In this document: positions 1,365 through 6,062 of the stretch, in pieces
Layout: each line of letters begins with the position of its first letter
Position numbering within the stretch: position 1 is the stretch's first letter
DNA from: a candidate division KSB1 bacterium
Lineage (GTDB): Bacteria > Zhuqueibacterota > JdFR-76 > DREG01
Direction of reading: 5' to 3'
Length of the DNA: 6,401 bases
NCBI GenBank assembly: GCA_022566355.1
Contig: JADFJB010000179.1
Location: forward strand, 1 to 6,401
Made by a program: the position numbers and the translations under genes
The notes under the pieces: generated by a model
What the model saw: the letters and a program-made list of their open reading frames with translations, nothing else
Database searches by the model: none
What the model was told of the DNA's origin: nothing

Positions 1365-1409
1365 ATATTATTTATTTATTTCCAGCACCATCATCTTCCT
1401 GGTGATCAC
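1365..1409 (-). repeat. Copy A of a 45-bp direct repeat (3' end of the sorting-domain gene)
   Basis: This segment encodes the last residues of the sorting domain (VITRKMMVLEINK and stop) plus three bases after it. It matches 3198-3242 at 43 of 45 positions in the same orientation. The two differences are C/A at 1383 versus 3216 and C/T at 1389 versus 3222. Confidence 0.9.
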
Positions 1410-3179
1410 TAGAGCGCCTGCTGTAAGTTGATATACATAAACTCCGTTGGCAACCCGCTGTCCTGCAGCATTTCTGCCATCCCAATCATATGAATAGGAC
1501 CTGGGATTCTGAATCTCATCTACGAGGGCTATGATTTCTTGTCCTAAGAGATTATAGATTGTTAGCTTGACCTTTCGTTGAGCAGGCAGGTCATACCTGA
1601 TTTTTGTGCTCAAGGCCAAGGGATTGGGATAATTCTGATAAAGTCTATAGTCCTGTGGTGAATCATTTGAAGGTTCTTCAGTGGTCTTTTCAGCAAAACC
1701 GATGGCAAAGTTAGCAGCTCCAAATTGCTTTACCCACTTGACGTAATGTTTCATGACGGAAATACTAGCCAAGCGATCTGACCCGGATCCACCGACCATG
1801 GCGATTACCACCTCCTGGGTATCACCCAAAGCCATGGCAAAAGGTCCTGAATTCAGGGAAAAATAGCGCTCGCCGGGAAGGGGCCCTCCATATGAATATG
1901 AATGGTTGCGATCAAATACACCGTCAATCCACCCGGTTCCGGCAACCGGATCACCGGGAACGGTGAACCTGGTTGGATTCCCATATTGATCTGTCATAGG
2001 TGATGGCCATGAAAATGGCATAAGACCATTCAATAGATTATATAAACTCAAAGTATTACGATAGTTATAACGACCTGGTGGACTATTGACTCCCCCCGAA
2101 GCGTGGAGCCAAAAGGAGGTCATTTTCAAATTCATATACCCTTTTCTATGATTAAAATCAAATCTGCCTTTTTCGGATGGATCATCACTGGGAATCAACG
2201 GCCCCTGGATTAACAAATACCCAAATGCTGGCGGAGCAAGGTCAAATTCTTCGAAAGCAGCCTCAATTGGATAGCCATTATAGCCATAACCCAATTGCAG
2301 TGTCGTGTCACATCCGGCAAGATCCCTAATATCTCCAATGTCGGTATCAGCAAATAAGCCAACATACATACTGTCGATTCTTGCGCTCTTTGGAGTATCA
2401 ATTCTACCTTTGTAGATGAGCTTCACCTGTTTAAAAACCGCATGTTGCAGGGCCTCATGCAAACGGGATCCAGTTCGGTTGTAGGCCCAAATCGCAGTCT
2501 GAATTTCAAGACCAATCGGCGGGCTGCCGATGAAAGAAATAGTCCGGCTCGCATCCAGATCATTGGCCACGAACCAAACGACTTGATCTGCAGAATTCAA
2601 ACCGGGCTCCTCACCTGCATCCATGATGCCATTTCTGTTATCATCATAATAAGGTGCGCCCTTTTGCCAGGGCCATTCGTTCCAATCCCTTTGATACAAA
2701 GATCGCAGCGTATTGATCTGATCCTGGGTCACACTGTCTTGCGAAACATAGAAAAACTCTGATGCATCACGAGTTAAATCTGCGTTCTGCCAGTCTCTGC
2801 GGATGCGCCAGATACGGGTATCTGACGATGCCGTGTCCTCAGCAACGCCCTGAGAAAGTATGGCACCAAGAAGCGTCCCCTGGTACCATAGACCGCCGCC
2901 GCCGCGCAGTTCCGGCTCATGGCCGTCCTTGACAAAGCCGCCCCAGATGACGCCATCTTTGTACATTACATTAGCCGTGCCCCTCGGATAGGTTGTGCCC
3001 GCGCCGTTTGTGTGGGGATTAGGACCAATCTGATCATTCGTATGTACCCAACTGGATATCTGATTGATATTAATTAACGTCGTTGTGGGTTTGTTCAGCT
3101 CTGGTGGTAACTGGGCATAGGATGCGATGGCCGCCATAAACAGAAGCGAGAAGGCCGAAATTGATGTTCGCAAATTCAT
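1368..3179 (-). CDS. Secreted protein with C-terminal sorting (FlgD-like/T9SS type) domain
   Basis: The 603-residue product begins with a signal peptide (about residues 1-22, MNLRTSISAF then a hydrophobic core ending SYA-Q). The central region is not recognised as an enzyme; it is rich in Gly, Trp and Tyr and holds a calcium-loop-like motif, DDNRNGIMDAGEE (residues 179-191, with D179, N181, N183, D187 and E190 placed as in an EF-hand or dockerin loop). Residues about 511-603 are a classic sorting tail: YQNYPNP, then KIRYDLP, VKLTIYNLLGQEI, WDGRN, GVYVYQL and a basic TRKMMVLEINK end. In FCB bacteria this module directs proteins through type IX secretion, or is annotated as a FlgD Ig-like fold. 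The product is therefore probably exported or surface-attached. The ATG at 3179 is chosen because the signal peptide follows at once; a GAGAA stretch lies about 8-12 bases upstream. A 45-bp copy of its own 3' end sits just before the start. Confidence 0.85.
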   Translation of the reverse strand: MNLRTSISAFSLLFMAAIASYAQLPPELNKPTTTLININQISSWVHTNDQIGPNPHTNGAGTTYPRGTANVMYKDGVIWGGFVKDGHEPELRGGGGLWYQGTLLGAILSQGVAEDTASSDTRIWRIRRDWQNADLTRDASEFFYVSQDSVTQDQINTLRSLYQRDWNEWPWQKGAPYYDDNRNGIMDAGEEPGLNSADQVVWFVANDLDASRTISFIGSPPIGLEIQTAIWAYNRTGSRLHEALQHAVFKQVKLIYKGRIDTPKSARIDSMYVGLFADTDIGDIRDLAGCDTTLQLGYGYNGYPIEAAFEEFDLAPPAFGYLLIQGPLIPSDDPSEKGRFDFNHRKGYMNLKMTSFWLHASGGVNSPPGRYNYRNTLSLYNLLNGLMPFSWPSPMTDQYGNPTRFTVPGDPVAGTGWIDGVFDRNHSYSYGGPLPGERYFSLNSGPFAMALGDTQEVVIAMVGGSGSDRLASISVMKHYVKWVKQFGAANFAIGFAEKTTEEPSNDSPQDYRLYQNYPNPLALSTKIRYDLPAQRKVKLTIYNLLGQEIIALVDEIQNPRSYSYDWDGRNAAGQRVANGVYVYQLTAGALVITRKMMVLEINK

Positions 3180-3197: not shown

Positions 3198-3242
3198 ATA
3201 TTATTTATTTATTTCAAGCACTATCATCTTCCTGGTGATCAC
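3198..3242 (-). pseudogene. Copy B: 3' tail of a lost sorting-domain paralogue
   Basis: On the minus strand this reads VITRKMIVLEINK followed by a stop, nearly identical to the end of the 603-residue gene. The homology stops at 3242; a few codons further upstream an in-frame TAG appears and no coding sequence continues. The stop codon of this remnant is about 20 bases before the start of the intact gene. The simplest reading is a former tandem array of sorting-domain genes in which the upstream member has been deleted or has decayed, leaving only its tail. An alternative is recombination between the conserved tails. Confidence 0.75.
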
Positions 3243-3265
3243 AAGTGAAGTCTACCAAATGATAA

Positions 3266-3405: not shown

Positions 3406-3531
3406 GATTATCCGGACTGGAAGTTGACTGCCTGCATATTTGCAGATGATTTTGAATCGGGCGATCTAACTCCATTCCAAGGAAAATTATCAATCTTTAG
3501 GACTAAAGTATTTGTAGTTACGCGCCGATAA
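3406..3531 (+). pseudogene. Possible remnant of an exported 'DFESGDL' protein
   Basis: A short plus-strand frame without a start codon, bounded by TAA codons at 3403-3405 and 3529-3531, includes LTACIFADDFESGDLTPFQG. A hydrophobic stretch ending Ala, followed by DDFESGDL, resembles the signal peptide end and first residues of secreted FCB and proteobacterial proteins whose mature part starts D-(D/N)-F-E-S-G-(D/N)-L. Nothing after it is recognisable. The frame is only 41 codons and the sigma-28 promoter lies inside its end, so if it was a gene it is dead. Chance resemblance is possible. Confidence 0.3.
3504..3531 (+). promoter_or_regulatory. Sigma-28 (FliA) flagellar promoter
   Basis: The -35 element TAAAGTAT (3504-3511) and the -10 element GCCGATAA (3524-3531) match the enteric sigma-28 consensus TAAAGTTT / GCCGATAA at 7 of 8 and 8 of 8 positions. 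The distance from TAAA to GCCGATAA is 16 bases, one longer than the usual 15. Transcription would begin around 3536-3540, placing the c-di-GMP aptamer about 20 bases into the transcript and giving a leader of about 175 nt. The position fits a late flagellar gene. Whether the organism encodes FliA cannot be seen here. Confidence 0.75.
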
Positions 3532-3560
3532 TCATTATGGAATAAAAGATTATTTCCAGA

Positions 3561-3652
3561 TTGTACTGAAGGGCAAATCTTCTGAAAAGAAGGGTCGCAA
3601 AGCTTCCGGTCTAAGTCCATTGATTTGGATAAGATAGCGGGGTTGCTAGGTA
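3561..3652 (+). promoter_or_regulatory. Cyclic-di-GMP-I riboswitch (GEMM-I aptamer)
   Basis: The leader matches the GEMM-I aptamer in order: AGGGCAAA (3570-3577); a hairpin with a GAAA tetraloop at 3584-3587; CGCAAAGC (3596-3603); TTCCGGTCTAAG (3604-3615); a second hairpin closed by TCCA/TGGA; and TAGCGGGGTTGCT (3635-3647). TCTAAG (3610-3615) opposite TAAGA (3630-3634) resembles the 11-nt receptor that docks the GAAA loop. Aligned from memory to the Vibrio cholerae Vc2 aptamer, the ligand-contacting residues G20, A47 and C92 correspond to G3572, A3599 and C3646. A G at position 20 points to c-di-GMP and away from the cGAMP-selective G20A class. The outer P1 helix is short and approximate (TACT 3564-3567 with AGGTA 3648-3652), so the ends are uncertain by several bases. 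Confidence 0.93.
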
Positions 3653-3668
3653 AAAAAATAGTCAACCC
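3640..3668 (+). promoter_or_regulatory. Predicted antiterminator helix of the riboswitch
   Basis: GGGTTG (3640-3645), inside the 3' core of the aptamer, is exactly complementary to CAACCC (3663-3668), whose last five bases form most of the 5' arm of the terminator. The two pairings exclude each other. When ligand holds 3640-3646 in the aptamer, CAACCC is free to build the terminator; without ligand the six-pair antiterminator can form. This predicts an OFF switch. It is inferred from complementarity alone. Confidence 0.65.
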
Positions 3669-3692
3669 ACTGCGTTTGGAAGTGGGTTTTTT
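3664..3692 (+). terminator. Intrinsic terminator, expression platform of the riboswitch
   Basis: AACCCACT (3664-3671) and AGTGGGTT (3681-3688) form a perfect 8-bp stem with a 9-base loop, followed by an unbroken T-run at 3687-3692 and a further T-rich stretch. It lies 12 bases after the aptamer and 22 bases before the start codon of the FliD-like gene, so it must be conditional for the gene to be expressed. Confidence 0.92.
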
Positions 3693-3696
3693 ATTT

Positions 3697-3710
3697 AAAG
3701 GAAATGAGGA
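3697..3710 (+). promoter_or_regulatory. Ribosome binding site deciding the FliD-like start
   Basis: AAAGGA (3697-3702) and GAGGA (3706-3710) lie immediately after the terminator T-run; GAGG ends 5 bases before the ATG at 3715. An in-frame ATG at 3625 lies inside the aptamer and before the terminator, with no comparable site. The start at 3715 is therefore preferred. Confidence 0.8.
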
Positions 3711-3714
3711 AATC

Positions 3715-4983
3715 ATGAATATTGCTGGCTCATATTTTTACAACAATCAAATATCCAACCTTATCTCAACCATTGGAGTTAAGCCTTCGACAGGTTTTTC
3801 TGAACAAGTAATTATATCAGCTGTAGCAAGTATTCAAAATAAGATATCAAACCAAATATTCTCTGCTGAATCTGCTCAGGTTTTGGGAAATTTCTATAAT
3901 AATGTTGTAGACTTGGCTAACCAAGCTCAAAAATTAACTCTTGCTGCTTCAAACTCAGTTTTTAATGATCGCACCGCTAAGTCTTCGGATACCAACATTC
4001 TTACTGCCACAGCTTATGATGCATTGTCATCGGTTACCGGCGCTTCTGAATCTACTTATCAAATATCAATCACACAACTGGCCCTGTCCCAGGAAAATGA
4101 AGGCAATGATTTAAATGAAACTGAGACAAGTGTTGTACCAATTGGGACGAATATTTTCAATATTTCAATTGACGGGAACGACTTTGAACTTAGTATTGAT
4201 GTAACAGCAGGAGACACAAACGCAGATGTACTAGAAAAGATGACAATGGCTATTAATGATGCCAACCTTGGTATAACAGCGAATGTAACTTCTGGCAGTA
4301 GTGCGAATACTAAAAAGATCACCATTGCATCGAATAGTACAGGGGCTGTAAATGGATTTTCAATTTCTGATGTATCAGGTAGTGCTGTTACCGCAATGGG
4401 TGCAGATATTATTACAACCATCGCCCAGGATTCTGCTTATGTAGTTGATGGAATGGAATATTCATCAGAATCCAATACGGTTTATTTAGACAATAGCATG
4501 GTAACAGTAAATTTATTGGGTGTTGGCGATGTGGATTTGACTATTGCACCTGATGCGGATACAGTCGATAATGCAATTTCAAATTTCGTTTCTGAACTAA
4601 ATTCTTCTATTGATTTTTTGCAAAACAACAGTGACTACATTAATGATGATGTTCTTGAAACGATTAATTCTTTCATTTCTGACCATAAAAGTGAATTGGA
4701 ATCATTTGGTATCCAAAAAAACAGTGATGGGAAACTTGAGATTGATCAAGAAAAATTATCGGAAGCCATTGCGCAAAACTTTGGAGGTATAAAGGATACT
4801 TTCGCTGGTGTTAATGGTTTTTCTATCCAGATTGATAACTTATCGAATCGAATAAAGTCTTCACCCGTTTCAGATTATTCGAAAGAATTTGAGAGCTCGG
4901 ATTATTCGAAATTATTTTATAGCAACCTACAGAATGTGAATCAAAATTCAATACAAGGTATGTTGTTGGATATACTTATTTAA
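3715..4983 (+). CDS. Short, atypical FliD-like flagellar cap / flagellin-hook-IN protein
   Basis: This is a 422-residue product with no cysteine. FliD caps the flagellar filament and promotes flagellin folding after export through the flagellar secretion system. Residues about 85-125 match the FliD N-domain pattern (SDTNILTATAYDALSS, then TYQISITQLALSQ). Residues about 143-192 resemble a flagellin hook IN motif (IGTNIFNISIDGNDFELSID, then MAINDANLGITANV). AQDSAYVVDGMEYSSESNTV (237-256) is the usual FliD 'vdG' segment, and 326-380 match the FliD C-domain (LESFGIQKNSDGKLEIDQEK, then FAGVNGFS). The normal FliD N-terminus (a GlGSGlD-type start) is missing, and so is the long C-terminal coiled coil. 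The protein ends in about 40 residues with two SDYSK units (DNA repeat at 4873-4884 and 4900-4911) and a hydrophobic LLDILI. It may be a specialised or secondary cap. The sigma-28 promoter and c-di-GMP riboswitch upstream support a flagellar role. No other flagellar gene is in view. Confidence 0.8.
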   Translation: MNIAGSYFYNNQISNLISTIGVKPSTGFSEQVIISAVASIQNKISNQIFSAESAQVLGNFYNNVVDLANQAQKLTLAASNSVFNDRTAKSSDTNILTATAYDALSSVTGASESTYQISITQLALSQENEGNDLNETETSVVPIGTNIFNISIDGNDFELSIDVTAGDTNADVLEKMTMAINDANLGITANVTSGSSANTKKITIASNSTGAVNGFSISDVSGSAVTAMGADIITTIAQDSAYVVDGMEYSSESNTVYLDNSMVTVNLLGVGDVDLTIAPDADTVDNAISNFVSELNSSIDFLQNNSDYINDDVLETINSFISDHKSELESFGIQKNSDGKLEIDQEKLSEAIAQNFGGIKDTFAGVNGFSIQIDNLSNRIKSSPVSDYSKEFESSDYSKLFYSNLQNVNQNSIQGMLLDILI

Positions 4984-5044
4984 GTTAATTTGATTTATAT
5001 TGTAAACATCATATGGATCTAAATATGAAGAAGAAGAGAATGGT

Positions 5045-5818
5045 ATGCGATTTTTATTCAAACTTTTATTGTTACCTATTACGTTATTAGCTGGCTGTAG
5101 TGGTGACAGCTTAACATCTCCAGGTCAAACGGGCAATCTCAAAATAAGCTTAACTGATTCGCCAGCTACATATGAAGCAGTGAATATTACTTTTTCAGAA
5201 ATTAGTGCAAACATTAATGAGGATTGGATTACAGTGAATAGCGAGCCCATTACTGTAAATTTATTAGAATGGAATAATGGGAAATCAATTGTAATTGGAT
5301 CGGCTCAGGTTCCTGCCGGACAATATTCTCAAATACGGCTCATAATTGACGATGCAGAGGTTGTCGTAGATGGTCAGACACACAAAATAACTGTTCCCAG
5401 TGGCGTTAAGACTGGCTTAAAGCTAGGCCCGGAGTTTACTGTTGTTTCGGGCTCAACGTATGAATTGGTAGTTGATTTTGATGCTAATAGATCCATTGTA
5501 ACAACAGGTCCACCAAACAATCCGAACGGTTATATTTTGAAGCCCACTGTTCGAGTTGTGCCCAAAGCTATTACAGGCTCAATTTCAGGTGTTATCGCAA
5601 ATCCTCAAAATTCGGCAATCGCATATGCAATAATAGGGATGGATACTTTGACTTCATCAATAGTAGATACAACGAACGGTTCTTTTATGTTGGCCTTTTT
5701 ACCAGAGGGAGTTTTCACTGTTAGTGTCAACGATACAACAGGACTTTCATTTGTAACAGACAATGTAGAGGTAATTGCTGGGTCCAACCAGAACCTTGGT
5801 ACGATTACACTACAATAG
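5045..5818 (+). CDS. DUF4382-type lipoprotein with C-terminal carboxypeptidase-regulatory-like domain
   Basis: The product has 257 residues. MRFLFKLLLLPITLLAGC is a lipoprotein signal peptide with lipobox LAGC and acylated Cys18; Ser19 follows, so outer-membrane sorting is plausible. Residues about 30-174 match the DUF4382 pattern (GNLKISLTDSPATYEAVNIT, VPAGQYSQIRL, GLKLG, ELVVDFDANRS, YILKPTVRV), a beta-rich domain of unknown role found in envelope lipoproteins. Residues about 176-257 look like a carboxypeptidase-regulatory-like beta sandwich (GSISGVI, then NGSFMLAFLPEGVFTVSV and a final GTITLQ). No catalytic residues are apparent. The ATG at 5045 is chosen because the signal peptide begins there and a GA-rich stretch (5026-5040) precedes it; ATGs at 5025 and 5040 are out of frame. 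It starts 61 bp after the FliD-like gene with no terminator between, so it may be co-transcribed under the same riboswitch. Confidence 0.85.
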   Translation: MRFLFKLLLLPITLLAGCSGDSLTSPGQTGNLKISLTDSPATYEAVNITFSEISANINEDWITVNSEPITVNLLEWNNGKSIVIGSAQVPAGQYSQIRLIIDDAEVVVDGQTHKITVPSGVKTGLKLGPEFTVVSGSTYELVVDFDANRSIVTTGPPNNPNGYILKPTVRVVPKAITGSISGVIANPQNSAIAYAIIGMDTLTSSIVDTTNGSFMLAFLPEGVFTVSVNDTTGLSFVTDNVEVIAGSNQNLGTITLQ

Positions 5819-5967
5819 GAATTTCTAAGGGAGAAGCGGCGGAGTATCGCACCAACTAAAGAATGTGAAAAACCGAATATTTGTTCTTCTTGTTGTAAAA
5901 GAAATTTTGCTGAATTGTCTTTTCGCAACGTTCATAATTAACCCGGACTACTCATGAACACTATCAC

Positions 5968-6062
5968 TGTCATCCAGAAGGGATCTATTTTGCAACTATT
6001 TTATACTTACAATTATGCTTTTTCAATTTTATGGCAATAGATCCCTTTGCGACGGGATGACA
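5968..6062. repeat. 95-bp palindromic (REP/MITE-like) element
   Basis: The outer arms TGTCATCC (5968-5975) and GGATGACA (6055-6062) are perfect 8-bp reverse complements. The inner arms AAGGGATCTATT (5978-5989) and AATAGATCCCTT (6036-6047) are perfect over 12 bp. Two bases separate the arms on the left side and seven on the right, around an AT-rich loop of 46 bases. 'TGTCATCC..AAGGGATCT' resembles dispersed intergenic repeats with TGTCATCCTGA...GGATCT cores seen in many bacterial genomes, by recollection. No transposase is present. Confidence 0.7.

Follow-up and report, generated by a model that had tools for sequence, protein, structure and literature searches.

Riboswitches that sense cyclic di-GMP (c-di-GMP) are already known at flagellar genes from Clostridioides difficile, where the Cd1 (Cdi-1-3) riboswitch of the flgB operon is turned OFF by c-di-GMP (PMC9262584) and sits on an early operon that encodes SigD (PMC6200980; PMC7438776), so that the second messenger acts above the flagellar sigma factor. 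In Bdellovibrio bacteriovorus, where the role of FliA is broad and extends beyond flagella, swimming cells contain merRNA, a c-di-GMP riboswitch RNA that is specific to the motile attack phase and has no conserved downstream gene (PMC3627812). The GEMM-Ib riboswitches of Geobacter have the same fold, sense cGAMP, and often precede genes for extracellular proteins or lipoproteins; no FliA link is described in the literature on these RNAs that we found.

The 6,401-nt stretch of DNA analyzed here (the window) comes from an uncultivated bacterium and contains a leader that resembles Cd1 in having a GEMM-I aptamer, an intrinsic terminator, a predicted OFF response, and a flagellar connection. Unlike Cd1, this switch lies below FliA, on a transcript that FliA would itself start, and has other genes behind it. 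It also differs from merRNA, which is a proposed c-di-GMP store and whose promoter is not marked as FliA-dependent in Table 2 of PMC3627812, and from GEMM-Ib, which has an A at the position that specifies the ligand where the window aptamer has a G.

A GEMM-I aptamer lies behind a sigma-28-type promoter

The original prediction described a FliA promoter, a c-di-GMP-I riboswitch, an intrinsic terminator, and a FliD-like gene in this order on the + strand of the window, and proposed a search with the covariance model RF01051. This search gave a strong match to the c-di-GMP-I (GEMM-I) aptamer at positions 3562-3650 of the + strand (75.3 bits, E 5.6e-14, gathering score 35), which spans the model end to end and is the only RF01051 match in the 4.6-Mb genome. 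A TTG start at 3625 in the list of open reading frames was dropped in favor of the ATG at 3715, because 3625 falls within the aptamer.

In the ligand junction of the window aptamer, a G stands immediately 5' of CAAA, and GGGCAAA is common to this aptamer and the four relatives of its subtype described below. We take this ligand-contact G to be position 20 of the family. A G20A variant binds cGAMP (PMC6274999). Both the family model and the identity of this base point to c-di-GMP as the probable ligand; the G fits c-di-GMP and not cGAMP.

The sigma-28 (FliA)-type promoter occupies 3504-3531 of the + strand, with a -35 element TAAAGTAT (3504-3511), a 12-nt spacer, and a perfect -10 element GCCGATAA (3524-3531) that ends 30 nt before the aptamer; the predicted transcription start is at about 3537-3541. 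The spacer of sigma-28 promoters is usually 11 nt, and compared with the consensus TAAAGTTT-N11-GCCGATAA the window site has one mismatch and one additional base in the spacer. With a simple sigma-28 weighting that we set manually to follow the textbook consensus, the site scored 24, compared with a best score of 22 elsewhere in 305 kb of this and related genomes (both strands), and dinucleotide shuffles of the leader matched its score with p = 0.0002. No sigma-70-like site was found on the + strand in the 120 nt that precede the aptamer.

Across the genome, the shorter pattern TAAA-N13-17-GCCGATAA shows no enrichment (8 matches versus 15 for a reversed control). Four of its seven matches other than the window site lie within long open frames, and none of those outside such frames precedes a recognizable flagellar gene. 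The case for a FliA promoter therefore rests on the extended -35 element, the position of the site, and the comparison with relatives.

The genome encodes the sigma factor that this promoter presupposes. A true FliA is present at C4:48966-49637 (275.5 bits, cut-off 189.6), which removes the objection, raised in the original prediction, that the genome might lack fliA, and fliA is found in every genome of the class (G026, G028, and G029 lie outside this check). The genes for flagellin, fliD, and fliS are clustered on contig C99, cheA is also in the genome, and a FlgM-like protein gave a weak match just under the cut-off. Sigma-28-like sites also lie 111 nt upstream of the start of the flagellin gene (TAAAGTAA-N11-GACGATAA) and 86 nt upstream of that of cheA (TAAAATTT-N11-GCCGATTG). 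The true fliD (L027 11404-14413) is unusually long, encoding >820 aa downstream of an assembly gap (N), and its FliD_C match is split into two pieces that lie far apart.

Folding of the leader predicts an OFF switch

An intrinsic terminator was recognized from sequence and folding at 3664-3692 of the + strand, where AACCCACT (3664-3671) and AGTGGGTT (3681-3688) form a stem (-11.7 kcal/mol) that is followed by a T tract. It escaped a simple terminator scanner because its loop is 9 nt. Free-energy folding also predicts an antiterminator at 3640-3668 of the + strand, in which GGGTTGCTA (3640-3648), in the aptamer 3' strand, pairs with TAGTCAACCC (3659-3668). The 5' arm of the terminator overlaps this antiterminator, and since nucleotides 3664-3668 are shared the two structures are mutually exclusive.

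For unliganded RNA that ends at 3668, the antiterminator is favored (-33.0 versus -27.1 kcal/mol with the aptamer enforced). When the RNA extends to the end of the T tract, the antiterminator has -47.0 kcal/mol and the combination of aptamer and terminator has -38.8 kcal/mol; the same comparison without the 5' leader gives -34.9 versus -33.5. The platform of a relative from another family, G029, has the same layout in different letters, with GCGGG in the aptamer facing CCCGC in the terminator arm (-47.5 versus -42.5), and the layout is thus found in two families. Competition of the terminator arm with the aptamer 3' strand in both loci is an OFF-switch topology, so whereas the original prediction gave no sign for the switch, folding predicts that it is OFF with c-di-GMP.

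At equilibrium, folding of the whole leader pairs its 5' part with the 3' arm of the terminator even when the aptamer is enforced, so that ligand-bound termination would depend on the kinetic, co-transcriptional order of folding. Nucleotides 3539-3560 of the 5' leader are complementary over about 20 bp to 3676-3700, which include the terminator 3' arm and the T tract, and this complementarity could provide a second layer of antitermination. No terminator was recognized by eye 3' of the aptamer in three other relatives (G002, G026, and G028), so the direction of regulation there may differ.

The promoter and the aptamer recur together in other genera

Matches to RF01051 are present in 11 of the 82 genomes of the phylum. 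Five of these aptamers (70-78 bits) have the subtype sequence TGAAGGGCAAA; they are from G000 (the genome of the window), G002, G026, G028, and G029, which represent four genera (g1, g3, g22, g24, and g24) in two families (f1 and f12). A sigma-28-like site is present in each of these five loci, with the -10 element ending 24-46 nt upstream of the aptamer. The sites and their shuffle p-values, which are not fully independent and should not be multiplied freely because the loci are related, are TAAAGTAT-N12-GCCGATAA in G000 (0.0002), TAAAGCCT-N11-GCCGATGA in G002 (0.0006), TTAAGTTT-N12-GCCGATTC in G026 (0.0018), TAAAGTTC-N12-GTCGAAAG in G028 (0.018), and TTAAGTTT-N12-GTCGATAC in G029 (0.0038). 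The match in G028 is weak (GTCGAAAG). At every one of the five loci, equal or better sites have a genomic frequency of <=0.01 per 37-nt span.

None of the six divergent GEMM-I matches in the phylum has a sigma-28-like site upstream of the aptamer; matches with a score of 18 at two of them, G033 and G022, were discarded because they overlap the aptamer's own ACCGATAAAGG. The comparison of leaders that the original prediction called for thus finds the pairing of a FliA-type promoter with GEMM-I in other genera, and this recurrence is the main evidence that the promoter and the aptamer belong together.

The genes behind the switch appear to encode mostly surface or secreted proteins

The first gene downstream of the promoter, aptamer, and terminator (3715-4983, + strand) is, as predicted, FliD-like. 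It encodes a 422-aa protein with atypical N- and C-terminal ends and is preceded by a purine-rich ribosome-binding region, AAGGAAATGAGGAAATC, read from the sequence at 3698-3714 of the + strand. In Pfam, the protein matches FliD_C above the cut-off (48.5 bits, cut-off 25.4) and FliD_N below it (22.2 bits, cut-off 24.8), and profile searches match it to the FliD structures 5h5v, 5h5t, and 5fhy, with homology to a solved FliD over residues 97-359. In an alignment with a true FliD from G066, another genome of the phylum, the protein agrees in its central domains and differs in its first 50 residues. The canonical ends of FliD (D0 region) are not found in this protein, which is without the C-terminal coiled-coil region, and its gene lies outside the flagellar cluster, away from flagellin and fliS. 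A structure prediction from a two-sequence alignment gave a mean pLDDT of 33 and a pTM of 0.20. A 27-nt tandem duplication at 4870-4923 of the window (SDYSKEFES/SDYSKLFYS) lies close to the C terminus.

One close relative of the FliD-like gene was found in the genome contigs searched (L012, JACZTA010000260.1; 67% identical), and there is no aptamer upstream of it. Directly behind this relative, at L012 2047-3231, is a gene for a response regulator that contains a CheX-like domain scoring under the Pfam cut-off, a neighbor that hints that the FliD-like family may have a role in chemotaxis or motility.

The next gene of the window (5045-5818, + strand) encodes a DUF4382 lipoprotein (PF14321, 121.6 bits, cut-off 25) with a CarboxypepD_reg-like end and a lipoprotein-type signal, in which an LLAGC motif lies near the N terminus. 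The interval from 4983 to 5045 contains no predicted terminator. The DUF4382 gene is probably the second gene of an operon with the FliD-like gene, and the two would be co-transcribed.

In G029, a DUF4382 lipoprotein with 62% identity to that of the window over 252 residues is encoded immediately behind the promoter, aptamer, and terminator, which identifies DUF4382, and not the FliD-like gene, as the conserved target. From these gene orders, it looks as though the FliD-like gene was either inserted between the switch and the DUF4382 gene or lost in G029. In G002, the subtype aptamer precedes a gene for a lipoprotein without a Pfam match; this protein was considered as a relative of DUF4382 and dropped, as it has no convincing similarity to that of the window. 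In G026, the gene behind the aptamer encodes a DUF5666 protein that has a T9SS-like tail; in G028, the aptamer precedes a very short frame and then a gene for a pentapeptide-repeat protein. The G026 protein (L041 1314-3848), behind a FliA-type promoter and GEMM-I, has 845 aa with eight DUF5666 stretches and an FlgD_ig/T9SS-like tail. Judged from their sequences, the genes behind the switch appear to encode mostly surface or secreted (envelope) proteins and not flagellar machinery.

These results do not support, in the form given, the part of the original prediction in which the FliD-like gene is the essential flagellar target, as G029 has the switch directly before DUF4382, the sole close relative has no aptamer, the true fliD is on another contig, and the canonical C-terminal region is absent. 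The coupling therefore seems to concern surface or secreted proteins that motile cells make, more so than the late steps in assembly of the flagellum.

Other features of the window

On the - strand, positions 1368-3179 encode a secreted protein of 603 aa that carries a sorting tail for type IX secretion (TIGR04183, above the cut-off), as would fit an FCB-type bacterium. Two direct copies of a 48-nt sequence, 94% identical, lie at 1365-1412, which is the end of this gene, and at 3198-3245, between the gene and the riboswitch leader, where the copy looks like the remnant of the end of such a gene. A short inverted-repeat element, GTCATCC...GGGATCTATT ... AATAGATCCC...GGATGAC, has conserved flanks and several copies in the genome (window 5966-6062; L010 at about 390-500; L030 at about 7780 and 10081), and is MITE- or REP-like.

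Discussion

We consider it likely that the leader is a two-input device that passes a signal when FliA is active and c-di-GMP is not bound, both inputs acting on one transcript. RNA polymerase with FliA would start near 3537-3541, so that the transcript would be made only once the flagellar program has released FliA, and the nascent RNA would fold into the c-di-GMP-I aptamer. Binding of c-di-GMP would hold the 3' strand (about 3638-3648) in the aptamer, so that the hairpin of the terminator at 3664-3688 would form and stop transcription before the first gene. At low c-di-GMP, the aptamer 3' strand would pair with 3659-3668 and transcription would read through into the FliD-like gene and then DUF4382. 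The genes would thereby be made in motile cells and turned off upon commitment to sessile life. Computed support for this model comes from the aptamer, the promoter match, the terminator, the mutually exclusive pairings, the conservation of promoter with aptamer, and the presence of fliA in the genome; use of the promoter by FliA, c-di-GMP as the ligand, and the OFF direction are steps that we infer from these.

An ordinary GEMM-I riboswitch with a housekeeping or other promoter, behind a sigma-28 match that arose by chance, would account for the 12-nt spacer and for a short promoter pattern that is rarer in the genome than its reversed control. This reading is improbable, as the window site has the top score in the 305 kb compared and the right distance to the aptamer, such sites precede all five subtype aptamers and none of the other six, and a sigma-70-like site is missing from the 120 nt upstream on the + strand. 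We give about as little weight to a switch of the opposite or another kind, in which c-di-GMP stabilizes read-through or frees the ribosome-binding site: G002, G026, and G028 show no intrinsic terminator after the aptamer, and the unbound full leader can also bury the terminator in the long pairing with the 5' leader, but in the window and in G029 the terminator arm is set against the aptamer 3' strand through an antiterminator, as expected of an OFF switch like Cd1.

Termination would release short RNAs that carry the aptamer, and an RNA that acts mainly as a free c-di-GMP-binding sponge, with control of downstream genes secondary, has a precedent in the merRNA of swimming cells (PMC3627812). 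That this is the main role of the window RNA is very improbable, since downstream genes, a terminator, and an antiterminator are present and are kept between two families, whereas merRNA has neither a conserved downstream gene nor a FliA mark (PMC3627812). A further reading, compatible with the two-input leader, follows the original prediction on the target: the FliD-like protein would be a second true filament cap, and the switch would exist mainly to control it. Its FliD_C and FliD_N matches, the homology of residues 97-359 to a solved FliD, and the 67% identical relative in another MAG, which indicates that the protein is maintained, speak for a cap. We nevertheless regard this as rather unlikely, because the gene is away from a flagellar cluster that has its own FliD, the C-terminal coiled-coil region is absent, the L012 relative is found without a riboswitch and ahead of the gene for the response regulator with the CheX-like domain, and G029 carries the switch without a FliD-like gene.

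The reading that we prefer, joint control of one transcript by FliA and c-di-GMP, can be extended to the relatives as a tentative proposal that might well hold: a portable module of a FliA promoter and GEMM-I, permissive in motile cells and closed by c-di-GMP, would have been placed before different proteins across genera (DUF4382 lipoprotein, FliD-like, DUF5666/T9SS-type, unnamed lipoprotein, and pentapeptide-repeat), so that FliA and c-di-GMP would be integrated on a single transcript beyond the flagellar genes proper. In a literature search that was thin on subscription journals, we found no c-di-GMP riboswitch described as driven by FliA and followed by genes, and no link between DUF4382 and a riboswitch.

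A riboswitch on transcripts that FliA is predicted to start would act as a c-di-GMP veto on each transcript after the motility program is already on. The products of the FliD-like and DUF4382 genes would then be surface or secreted parts used by swimming cells, and the recurrence of the switch before uncharacterized envelope proteins such as DUF4382 hints at a role for these proteins as surface components of the swimming cell.
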